From NCBI GenBank assembly GCA_016178595.1, contig JACOSY010000015.1:1-64000 (forward strand): a DNA stretch of 64,000 nucleotides, given 5' to 3'. Of the stretch, positions 27,045 through 34,507 are shown piece by piece (position 1 is the first letter of the stretch; the number at the start of each line of letters is the position of its first letter). A program made the translations under genes and the position numbers. The DNA is from Ignavibacteria bacterium (GTDB lineage: Bacteria > Bacteroidota > Ignavibacteria > UBA10030 > SZUA-254). The notes below the pieces were generated by a model. The model did not search any database. It saw only the letters and a list, made by a program, of their open reading frames with translations, and was not told the origin of the DNA.

Positions 27045-27152
27045 TGCGGGAGAAATACTTGACAGTGGTAAGGAAGTTGCGTCTCACAACGGCTCTATGT
27101 ATCTTTGTCAATCCTATCATATCAAAAAATCCAACATTCGATATTGACAATT

Positions 27153-28067
27153 ATGGCTATTCCAGATTATCAATCGTTGATGTTACCCTTACTCAAATTA
27201 ACATCGGACAAACAAGAGCATGCAATGAGAGATGTTGTTGAACGTCTCGCAAGCCAATTTAATCTCACAAGCGAGGAAAGGAAGGAACTCTTGCCAAGCG
27301 GTCAACAACCAATATTTGACAATCGAGTTGCATGGGCAAAGACCTATCTTAAGAAGGCTGGTCTACTTGATGCACCAAGGAGAGCCTTGATTGTGATTAC
27401 CGAAAGAGGACTCGACGTACTCGGAAATAATCCCTCCGAAATAAATGTCCGCTTCCTCAAGCAATTCCCTGAGTTCATAGAATTTCAAACCGCAAAACGG
27501 GAAGATGAAACAGAGGGGGCCAACCAAGAAGATGTTGCTATCCAAACACCAGAAGAGTCACTTGAATTGGCTTATCAACGGATTCGTAAAGCTCTCGCAC
27601 AAGAAGTACTCAACAAGGTCATTCAGTTGCCCGCTGCTTTTTTTGAACGACTGGTCGTAGAATTACTTGTAAGGATGGGCTACGGTGGATCGATCAAGGA
27701 CGCTGGAAAAGCGATTGGTGGGAGTGGTGATGAGGGAATTGATGGTACTATCAAGGAAGACAAACTCGGCCTTGATATCATTTACATTCAGGCAAAACGT
27801 TGGCAGCCGGGCAATCTTGTGGGTAGACCAGAAATCCAGAAATTTGTTGGTGCTCTTGCAGGTCAAGGTGCAAAGAAAGGGATATTCATAACCACTTCTT
27901 CATTCACAAGAGATGCTCTGGACTATGTTCCCCGGAATGAGACGAAGATTGTGTTAATCGATGGTGAACAACTTGCACAACTTATGATCGATCACAATCT
28001 TGGAGTGGCCCCTCAAATCGCCTATGAGATAAAACGGCTTGACAATGATTACTTTGGTGAAGAATAA
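27153..28067 (+). CDS. mrr: Mrr-like type IV restriction endonuclease
   Basis: 304 residues from ATG 27153; this start gives MAIPDYQSLMLPLL, which matches the start of E. coli Mrr. Residues ~5-90 form the Mrr N-terminal winged-helix domain. The nuclease domain has GGSGDEGIDGTI (Asp197) and YIQAKRW (Gln213, Lys215), the D...QxK form of PD-(D/E)xK. FVGALAGQGAKKGIFITTS follows. Mrr cuts DNA with modified bases and needs no partner methylase. It is alone between a hairpin array and an oppositely oriented operon, and its codon use is more AT-rich than its neighbours, which fits horizontal gain. Confidence 0.92.
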   Translation: MAIPDYQSLMLPLLKLTSDKQEHAMRDVVERLASQFNLTSEERKELLPSGQQPIFDNRVAWAKTYLKKAGLLDAPRRALIVITERGLDVLGNNPSEINVRFLKQFPEFIEFQTAKREDETEGANQEDVAIQTPEESLELAYQRIRKALAQEVLNKVIQLPAAFFERLVVELLVRMGYGGSIKDAGKAIGGSGDEGIDGTIKEDKLGLDIIYIQAKRWQPGNLVGRPEIQKFVGALAGQGAKKGIFITTSSFTRDALDYVPRNETKIVLIDGEQLAQLMIDHNLGVAPQIAYEIKRLDNDYFGEE

Positions 28068-30519: not shown

Positions 30520-30551
30520 GCGGCTTCCAGTTCCCTAAAACTGGAAGCCGC
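30520..30551. repeat. perfect 13-bp hairpin in the NTF2-dnaG gap
   Basis: GCGGCTTCCAGTT (30520-30532) is followed by a six-base loop and its exact complement (30539-30551). No T-tract follows on either strand, so it is unlikely to be a terminator. It resembles the other REP-like hairpins of the window but has its own sequence. The rest of 30393-30680 holds no gene that I can support. Confidence 0.75.
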
Positions 30552-30681
30552 TCTGACTCCACCAAATAACCATCCACGGACATCTAACTACCATAGTGCG
30601 TGAAAAGTTTCATTTGCCCGAAACTTTCGTCAGACAACCGGCGAAAAGAACAAGCGGCAGGTGACTTGGCACACATGCCCG

Positions 30682-30710
30682 TTGAGGCTCAATTGCCGGT
30701 TCGCTATACT
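30682..30710 (+). promoter_or_regulatory. sigma70-type promoter for a predicted small RNA
   Basis: TTGAGG (30682-30687) and TATACT (30705-30710) are 17 bases apart on the + strand. A start near 30717 follows. No + strand gene lies downstream before dnaG, which is on the other strand, but an intrinsic terminator does (30760-30795). The pair of signals is the argument. Confidence 0.45.
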
Positions 30711-30716
30711 GATAAT

Positions 30717-30795
30717 GGGGATATACTTCCTACAGCACTGGGAAACTTCCTCGATCCCTAGGGCAACGTCCTCCCGCGTTGCCCTTTCTTTTTTT
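30717..30795 (+). ncRNA. predicted ~79-nt small RNA, convergent with dnaG
   Basis: Bounded by the promoter at 30682-30710 and the terminator at 30760-30795. The RNA would start GGGGATATAC. GGGAT near its 5' end (30718-30722) can pair with ATCCC (30754-30758), enclosing a GGAA-AC-TTCC hairpin, and the terminator stem follows. No open frame with a ribosome site is seen. Its 3' end overlaps the last codons of dnaG in antisense. It does not match the conserved cores of 4.5S, 6S, tmRNA or RNase P RNA that I know. Confidence 0.45.
30760..30795 (+). terminator. intrinsic terminator on the + strand
   Basis: AGGGCAACG (30760-30768), an eight-base loop and CGTTGCCCT (30777-30785) are followed at once by TTCTTTTTTT. 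The T-tract is on the + strand only; read from the dnaG side the stem is preceded by A residues and followed by CTAGGG, so it cannot terminate dnaG in the usual way. Confidence 0.8.
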
Positions 30796-32665
30796 AGGTC
30801 AACACTCTCGCCTGCGACTCCAGTTCCTTGAGCGCAGTGACAAGCTGGCTGTTGCGCTCCAAATAAGAACTAATATCCTCTCCATTCTGCGTAGCCTCTT
30901 TGAGCAAAGATTGATTTCTTTCGAGCTCTCTTTTTAAGATCGCAGACTGGAACACTCTCAGGTAATGGATTACGAGTTTAGATGGATCAACAGACTCGAT
31001 CCGGCCTTTGATCCCTTCGTACACTTTCGGGTATGGATTGAATGTCAGTTGAAGAATAAGCTTTCGCACCTCTTGATCATCAGTACCATCGACAAGGTCG
31101 GAAGGTTGAAGAGAAAAACCATCTTCAGTCCTTTCGATAAACAACATGGCAAGCGATTTGGCAATAGGATGTGTGAAGTCGCTCACGGTGATCCTCTCGA
31201 ACACGAGCCTGATAACTTCTTCCCCTCCATCGAGCATTGCATGGATGAGATCGCGTTCTGATGCCGGAATATCGAGAGAAACGCTATGAATCTCTTCGTT
31301 TGATGTTTGTCGATTCTGTGAAGTCGTATCGGAAACGTTTTCCCCTCTTCTCTCCCGGCGATTCGTATCGATATGCTTCTCAAGTTCCCGGTAGAGCGTC
31401 GATTCGTAGAGACCGTACTTGTCGGCGACCTGCTTGATGTAGAAATTCCGTTTCAATTCATCGCGCATCTTCGCGATAGTCTGAACAATGGTTCTCACAA
31501 CCTGAGCCTGTCCTTCCGGCGTTTGAAATTTCCCTTCACGTTCGTATGCCTGTGCGATGAAGTCGACGAAAGACACCGCTTCATCAAGCAATTTCCGGAA
31601 GGCGTTCGCACCGAACTTTTTCACAAAGGAATCCGGGTCTTCACCATCCGGCAACCGTGCGACACGGACATCCAGGTCATTCTCCAGTATGAGATCGACG
31701 CCCCGAAGCGCCGCTTTCGATCCGGCAGAATCGGCATCATACACGATCGTGATGTTCTTGGTATAACGAGCGATGAGCTGGATCTGTTCCTGCGTGAGCG
31801 CCGTGCCGCTTGATGCGACGATGTTTCGAATTCCCGATTGGAAGACGCTGATCAAGTCGGCGTAGCCTTCAACAAGGATGGCAACATCTTTTTCCCGGAT
31901 GTCTTCCTTCGATTGGTAGATACCATAAAGGAGCTTGCTCTTATTATAGATGAGCGTCTCAGGCGAGTTGATGTATTTCCCCTGGACAGGATCGTCCTCC
32001 CGAAGCTTGCGCGCGCCGAACCCAACCACACGACCGGTCGGCGAGAAGACAGGAAACATTGCGCGCCCGCGGAAGTAGTCGTAGTACGAGCTATCTTCAC
32101 GCCGGCGAACGAGTCCGGCTTTCTCGACCTGTTCCGTTTTGAACTTTTTCTCTTCCGCGAATTTCAGGAAGGCGTCCCATGAGTTTGGCGAGTAGCCGAG
32201 TCCGAACGTGCGGATGGTTTCGTCCGTAAAGCCGCGCACAGTGCGGAAGTATTCGAGAGCGAGTTTGCCTTCCTGCGTTTCTGTCAGCGATTTGTAGAAG
32301 AAAAGTCCCGCCTCACGGCAAATTTGGTAAAGTTCCTCCTGCTCGCTCGCAGCCGATTCCTGATCGGACGAATAGACCGGCAATGCAATGCCTGCCTTCT
32401 CTGCCAGCGAGCGCACCGCCTCGATGAAGGAAACTTTCTCGTACTCCATCACGAACGTAAAGACATTTCCGCCGACTCCGCAGCCGAAGCAGTGATACAT
32501 CTGCCGCTCGGATGAGACGTTGAATGACGGCGTCTTCTCCGTATGGAAGGGGCATAGGCCGAGATAATTTTTGCCGCGTTTCTTTAGCTTCACGAAGCCG
32601 CCGATCAGGTCGACGATATCGGTGGCGTTGCGGATGTCGTCTATTTTTTCTGGAGAAATTCTCAT
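30794..32665 (-). CDS. dnaG: DNA primase
   Basis: 623 residues. The N-terminal CHC2 zinc ribbon is GLCPFHTEKTPSFNVS with MYHCFGCGVGGN. The TOPRIM core holds the acidic residues in VEGYADLISVFQSG and ITIVYDADSAGSKAAL. The C-terminal part is the helicase-binding region. Primase makes RNA primers for lagging-strand synthesis. The start ATG 32665 has no clear Shine-Dalgarno, and a hairpin repeat lies 12-80 bases upstream. It is not next to rpoD or rpsU here, unlike in many bacteria. Confidence 0.94.
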   Translation of the reverse strand: MRISPEKIDDIRNATDIVDLIGGFVKLKKRGKNYLGLCPFHTEKTPSFNVSSERQMYHCFGCGVGGNVFTFVMEYEKVSFIEAVRSLAEKAGIALPVYSSDQESAASEQEELYQICREAGLFFYKSLTETQEGKLALEYFRTVRGFTDETIRTFGLGYSPNSWDAFLKFAEEKKFKTEQVEKAGLVRRREDSSYYDYFRGRAMFPVFSPTGRVVGFGARKLREDDPVQGKYINSPETLIYNKSKLLYGIYQSKEDIREKDVAILVEGYADLISVFQSGIRNIVASSGTALTQEQIQLIARYTKNITIVYDADSAGSKAALRGVDLILENDLDVRVARLPDGEDPDSFVKKFGANAFRKLLDEAVSFVDFIAQAYEREGKFQTPEGQAQVVRTIVQTIAKMRDELKRNFYIKQVADKYGLYESTLYRELEKHIDTNRRERRGENVSDTTSQNRQTSNEEIHSVSLDIPASERDLIHAMLDGGEEVIRLVFERITVSDFTHPIAKSLAMLFIERTEDGFSLQPSDLVDGTDDQEVRKLILQLTFNPYPKVYEGIKGRIESVDPSKLVIHYLRVFQSAILKRELERNQSLLKEATQNGEDISSYLERNSQLVTALKELESQARVLT

Positions 32666-33928: not shown

Positions 33929-34507
33929 TCAATCAAACAGGTACCTGCTCAACTGCGCCGTCTGCTTCTTTGGACGTGAGTACTCGAGAACGAACTGTCC
34001 GTACTCATCGGGACCGGCAAAATGTAATCGCACGAAATCTTGATCCACAAGTGTTCCCCTTCTCTTTCCAACCCATTCCAGGTAATTCGAATATTCCCAA
34101 TCTTCAAGCGAGCGTACAATGCCCGCATCAAGCGGATTCCGATGAATATACCTGCAGAGATGGATGAGGTCCGCATGGTTCTTAATTAGCTTTGCGCGGA
34201 AACGCTCTTCGAATAATGTTCCCGAGCGATGGTATTTCTTATTAAACGCCTTCGTGTAACTATTGAAAACCCTTTGCATAAACTTGTTGAGAGATCGGTC
34301 GCCTTCCTGTCGTAAGAGAAAGTGGTAATGGTTAGGCATGAGGCAATACGCGATGACGCTCACGCCAAACGATTTTACGTGGGTCTTGATAAGGCGGAGA
34401 AGGAATCGGTAGTTAGTATCCTCCTTAAAAATCAGCTCCCGGTTACAACCCCGATTATAAAGATGGTAATACTGGCCTGCAGTAAATTGGATATTTCGCC
34501 GAGACAT
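33929..34507 (-). CDS. REP-associated tyrosine transposase (RAYT, Y1 HUH family)
   Basis: 192 residues. The HUH metal site is MPNHYHFLLR (His60, His62), and the probable nucleophile is Tyr84 in FNSYTKAFNKKY. YHLYNRGCNRELIF at the start and CRYIHRNPLDAGIV near the middle are standard for the IS200-like RAYT group. RAYTs are single-copy, domesticated relatives of IS200/IS605 transposases that nick and move REP hairpins; the one studied in E. coli cuts REP DNA in vitro. It lies between inverted REP copies (33858-33918 and 34531-34559), so the unit is complete. Downstream of kamA, same strand. Confidence 0.9.
   Translation of the reverse strand: MSRRNIQFTAGQYYHLYNRGCNRELIFKEDTNYRFLLRLIKTHVKSFGVSVIAYCLMPNHYHFLLRQEGDRSLNKFMQRVFNSYTKAFNKKYHRSGTLFEERFRAKLIKNHADLIHLCRYIHRNPLDAGIVRSLEDWEYSNYLEWVGKRRGTLVDQDFVRLHFAGPDEYGQFVLEYSRPKKQTAQLSRYLFD

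Follow-up and report, generated by a model that had tools for sequence, protein, structure and literature searches.

A conserved small RNA family of Ignavibacteria-type genomes with a Crp/Fnr-like upstream element and a candidate anti-Shine-Dalgarno terminator loop

The loop of CyaR, an enterobacterial small RNA (sRNA) that depends upon Hfq in Escherichia coli, pairs with Shine-Dalgarno regions. CyaR is itself activated by Crp (PMC9002310). Likewise, in Listeria monocytogenes, CU-rich motifs in the loops of LhrC, that of its terminator included, bind the ribosome site of lapB, and RsaE has been named among the sRNAs that carry C-rich motifs (PMC4132741). Control by sRNAs is also found in Bacteroides, although no obvious Hfq is present there, as exemplified by GibS of Bacteroides thetaiotaomicron (PMC7366714). 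For Ignavibacteria, the papers searched that name both these bacteria and small RNAs include, by title and abstract, none on sRNA regulation; their sRNAs are hardly described.

The window analyzed here (the whole stretch of 64,000 nucleotides from contig JACOSY010000015.1) belongs to a 3.1 Mb assembly, G000, whose closest relatives by dnaG are Ignavibacteria-type metagenome assemblies. Between two minus-strand genes, one of which is dnaG, a plus-strand promoter (TTGAGG-17-TATACT, 30682-30710) can be read directly in the window, followed by a textbook intrinsic terminator with the stem AGGGCAACGT/GCGTTGCCCT and then TTCTTTTTTT; both are present just as a sequence-only reading of this DNA had described them (Table 1). 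In the surroundings of dnaG, the window also encodes an Mrr-type restriction endonuclease with Mrr_N and Mrr_cat domains (27105-28067, plus strand), and an IS200-like (Y1_Tnp) transposase-family protein is found at 33929-34507 on the minus strand.

Table 1. Positions of the sRNA, its signals and neighboring or related elements (window coordinates unless a locus or contig is given)
Feature	Position	Strand	Remarks
dnaG (DNA primase)	30794-32665	-	Pfam PF01807, PF08275, PF10410
Minus-strand terminator, strong	30520-30551	-	Downstream of dnaG; putative end of a dnaG read-through transcript
Operator-like element TGACTTGGCACACA (TGA-N7-CACA)	30662-30675	+	Crp/Fnr-type core; in 8/8 homologues
-35 hexamer TTGAGG	30682-30687	+	TTG kept in 8/8 homologues
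-10 hexamer TATACT	30705-30710	+	By eye, homologues have a -10-like hexamer at a similar position
Small RNA, ~77-79 nt	30717-30795	+	5' end placed from the -10 position; covariance models R1/R2
P1 closing helix, 5' arm GGGAU	30718-30722	+	GGG/CCC in 8/8
P2 inner hairpin, 5' arm UUCC	30727-30730	+	CUUC/GGAG-type hairpin in consensus fold
P2 inner hairpin, 3' arm GGAA	30741-30744	+	Consensus fold
P1 closing helix, 3' arm AUCCC	30754-30758	+	Consensus fold
Intrinsic terminator stem-loop	30760-30785	+	Strong; stem covariation across 8 sequences
CUCC of terminator loop, predicted unpaired	30771-30774	+	Proposed anti-Shine-Dalgarno seed
Second element	L148:585-713, L149:648-776, L151:818-946	-	
Second element	L152:244-372, L153:232-360	+	
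Second element	G000:C34:53299-53434 (L225)	-	

In a 2.5 kb scan, terminators were weakly above chance (five found versus 2.6 expected) and promoter matches were at chance level (two found versus 2.1 expected from shuffled sequence). Because promoter matches are no more numerous than in shuffled sequence, one genome by itself proves little, and the same count is what would speak for a chance pairing of promoter-like and terminator-like sequences with no gene between them. It is conservation across seven other genomes that places promoter and terminator well above chance. The DNA just past dnaG holds similar short elements in G006, G007, G010, G011 and G014. A covariance model (R1) built from four sequences (the window, G006, G010 and G011) matched held-out homologues in G007 (E 3.0e-7), G004 (4.3e-7) and G014 (1.3e-6), and a second model (R2), built from seven sequences, matched the held-out homologue of G008 (E 9.6e-5). 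Homologues of 68-79 nt, which are mutually related and not independent, are thus present in eight of the 15 genomes of the family, the window’s own included; seven, some of them nearly complete, are without a detectable copy. Since the window RNA shares just 41-57% identity with the others, searches by DNA similarity across the family and the order missed the homologues and returned terminator scraps only.

A class-wide search of 294 genomes yielded no convincing copy beyond the family. R1 matches in G021 and G030, and R2 matches in G235, G260 and G267, were excluded as lying mostly in a terminator. The elements in G235 (C14:151063-151134, L213) and G260 (C351:11725-11797, L214), both of family f10, show CUUCCUC and, after it, a terminator that has CUCC in its loop; with scores that are weak for a search of 294 genomes, they are a weak lead towards possible distant relatives of the sRNA. 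In G021 (C28:11411-11582, L172), one gene is followed by tandem, near-identical terminators (AAAGGCAACTT.CTCCGAGTTGCC).

A consensus fold was derived from a hand alignment of the eight homologues and RNAalifold (the rows for G011 and G008 are each short one base in the unpaired middle, which leaves the quoted pairs unaffected). It consists of GGG/CCC closing pairs (P1), found in 8/8, an inner hairpin of CUUC/GGAG type (P2) and the terminator, and it bears out the ‘closed stem plus small hairpin’ that had been proposed from one sequence. The longer GGGAT/ATCCC stem of that proposal stands in its GGG/CCC part throughout; its A-U extension is found in some homologues only, P1 is uncertain beyond GGG/CCC, and the alignment of P2 is uncertain for the window and G014 sequences. 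Compensatory changes, for which the same reading had called for a covariance search of relatives, are seen in the terminator stem: four pairs are changed on both sides across the eight sequences, in a model-fitted alignment that is biased towards its own structure. The corresponding covariation score was reached by 0 of 500 shuffles, for a stem that would be under selection in any transcript. The loop of this terminator carries CUCC in 8/8 homologues, versus 0/16 other terminators from the same loci, and in predicted folds this CUCC is largely or entirely free of pairing (mean 0.75-1.0) in every homologue; additional CU-rich stretches occur in some homologues. On these predicted folds, the RNA has the unpaired CU-rich loop motif of the C-rich anti-Shine-Dalgarno sRNAs.

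No reading frame is conserved across the homologues, which agrees with the earlier statement that none is coded. A same-strand gene does lie ~130 bases downstream in G004, as it might if the element were a small peptide gene or the leader or attenuator of a following gene; that reading is disfavored by the missing frame and by the six copies at dnaG and the copy in G008, each of which is followed by a gene of the other strand, and it is highly improbable.

Upstream of the RNA, the pattern TGA-N7-CAC(A/G) starts 54-56 bases ahead of the 5' GGG in 8/8 homologues. Its background frequency in the window is 1.8e-4 per position, a figure that is descriptive because the pattern was noticed by eye before it was counted. 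The consensus Crp/Fnr site is TGTGA-N6-TCACA; the conserved pattern agrees with it in the core only, and is centered near -49, which is not the classical position for an activator. Proteins with a Crp-type helix-turn-helix DNA-binding domain are encoded in all 15 genomes of the family, and we infer that the putative operator would be the switch for a regulator of the Crp/Fnr type. Conservation outside this strain, on which the sequence-only reading had made its proposal depend, is thus seen in the operator, the TTG of the -35 hexamer (8/8) and the stem, all kept in seven other genomes, and the comparison gives strong support to an independent sRNA that has a promoter and a terminator to itself. 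Given the held-out covariance matches, the operator pattern in all homologues and the compensatory changes, a chance arrangement is extremely unlikely, and the predicted sRNA is very probably a real gene.

The location of the copies bears upon what such a gene might do. Six of them lie antisense immediately past dnaG, with the terminator stem 2-11 bases from its stop codon. The overlap with dnaG pits the U-tract against the stop codon alone (~2 bases of coding sequence), so that the sRNA is antisense to the 3' untranslated region (UTR) of dnaG rather than to its coding end. A dnaG transcript that read through to the minus-strand terminator (30551-30520) would be complementary to the entire sRNA, as would suit a cis-antisense RNA that pairs with the dnaG mRNA at its 3' end or 3' UTR and so controls the gene. 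The copies in G004 and G008, however, are found away from dnaG, at another conserved locus, between an ABC transporter (ATPase and permease) and a solute-symporter-like gene (names read from sequence, without a database search), so the members do not all lie opposite dnaG, as those of a cis-antisense RNA would. Because operator, loop and fold are unchanged at this second locus, it points to action in trans and renders an antisense role at dnaG unlikely. Moreover, conservation is concentrated in the operator, loops and terminator, and not in an overlap with the coding sequence. Control of dnaG in cis is therefore quite improbable: the earlier description of the RNA as antisense to the 3' end of dnaG is correct as a location in six of the eight genomes and probably wrong as a function. 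The two copies that are located elsewhere suggest, instead, binding to the ribosome sites of other genes, and the position against the end of dnaG would be incidental.

In four of the genomes with a copy at dnaG, the strand opposite to the first sRNA carries, beside it, a second conserved element of ~125 nt, which begins near AAUCGGGUAA and ends with CUAAUCCACC and a terminator. In G009 it is found past dnaG without the first sRNA; in the window genome it is absent from the place at dnaG and is found on contig C34 (held-out match, E 0.0028). This element may represent a second sRNA family.

At the gathering threshold, Rfam 15 gave 0 matches in the window; permissive thresholds brought up no credible family either, the top sub-threshold score on the element being 15.2 bits, for sbrA, versus 45, and the relatives at the sRNA element gave no match, in line with the earlier impression that no housekeeping RNA core is matched. 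6S RNA (RF00013) was rejected because its covariance model matches neither G000 nor any other member of the family; it is present elsewhere in the order, at ~225-260 nt. With no Rfam family at threshold and no 6S RNA in the family, we describe the sRNA as a new RNA family, of a functional kind that is already known. Hfq was detected in 0/15 genomes of the family, so that the RNA does not classify as an Hfq-dependent sRNA, and CsrA was likewise detected in 0/15. A CsrA sponge, considered on account of GGA motifs, was accordingly dropped. More broadly, a regulated sRNA might have a protein or another RNA as its partner, acting as a ‘sponge’ or ‘decoy’ rather than at ribosome-binding sites, and a pseudoknot may even join its CUCC loop to the GGAG of P2: GGAG-like and CUCC-like segments, read by eye, are complementary within each homologue. 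Purine-rich and pyrimidine-rich segments are easily complementary by chance, however, and CsrA, the best known GGA-binding partner, was not detected in the 15 genomes, which leaves this reading unlikely.

The explanation that we favor, and hold to be reasonably probable, is a conserved, independent sRNA gene that acts in trans, has a Crp/Fnr-type regulator as its switch, and pairs its CUCC with Shine-Dalgarno sequences without Hfq or CsrA. Under this proposal, the regulator would bind TGA-N7-CACA, close ahead of a promoter of sigma-70 type, and switch that promoter upon a metabolic or redox signal. The predicted transcript of ~77 nt, for which sequence and comparison speak, would stop at its own terminator, its 5' portion would fold into the GGG/CCC helix enclosing the small hairpin, and the terminator loop would always display its unpaired CUCC. 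By analogy to LhrC and RsaE, this seed would pair with the Shine-Dalgarno sequences of target mRNAs and block the entry of ribosomes, and the pairing would proceed without Hfq or CsrA. In the window, Shine-Dalgarno motifs precede 14 of 36 first ATGs versus 33 of 295 internal ATGs (p = 8e-5), an enrichment which implies that an exposed CUCC has partners to bind. More tentatively, and with somewhat greater doubt than confidence, the RNA may represent an undescribed sRNA family, confined to one Ignavibacteria-type family, that regulates translation globally and independently of Hfq, with a Crp/Fnr-type switch and a terminator-loop seed; the lineage, related to Bacteroidota, would be one in which Shine-Dalgarno sites have been retained.

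Among described systems, LhrC shares with this RNA the CU-rich motifs displayed in loops, including that of the terminator, as well as a short length and a terminator of its own (PMC4132741); it differs in the lack of Rfam homology, in its five copies in Listeria versus one per genome here, and in its regulator, which is LisRK in Listeria and would be of another type here. RsaE/RoxS and other UCCC-motif sRNAs of Firmicutes have a comparable accessible, C-rich anti-Shine-Dalgarno motif, but they belong to another phylum, give no Rfam match to the present RNA, and do not share its placement of the motif in the terminator loop. CyaR resembles it as an sRNA with a link to Crp, which for the present sRNA is a Crp/Fnr-type core pattern only; Rfam homology is again lacking, no Hfq was found here, and the operator is centered near -49. 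GibS, compared by description, is likewise an intergenic sRNA of the wider Bacteroidota group that operates without Hfq and acts at translation starts (PMC7366714), but it is ~145 nt long, has an unstructured 5' seed, and acts on mRNAs without Shine-Dalgarno sequences. With its invariant operator and exposed seed, in genomes where neither Hfq nor CsrA is detectable, this conserved RNA offers a concrete and testable way to approach post-transcriptional control in uncultured bacteria related to Bacteroidota that, unlike Bacteroides, are able to use Shine-Dalgarno sites.
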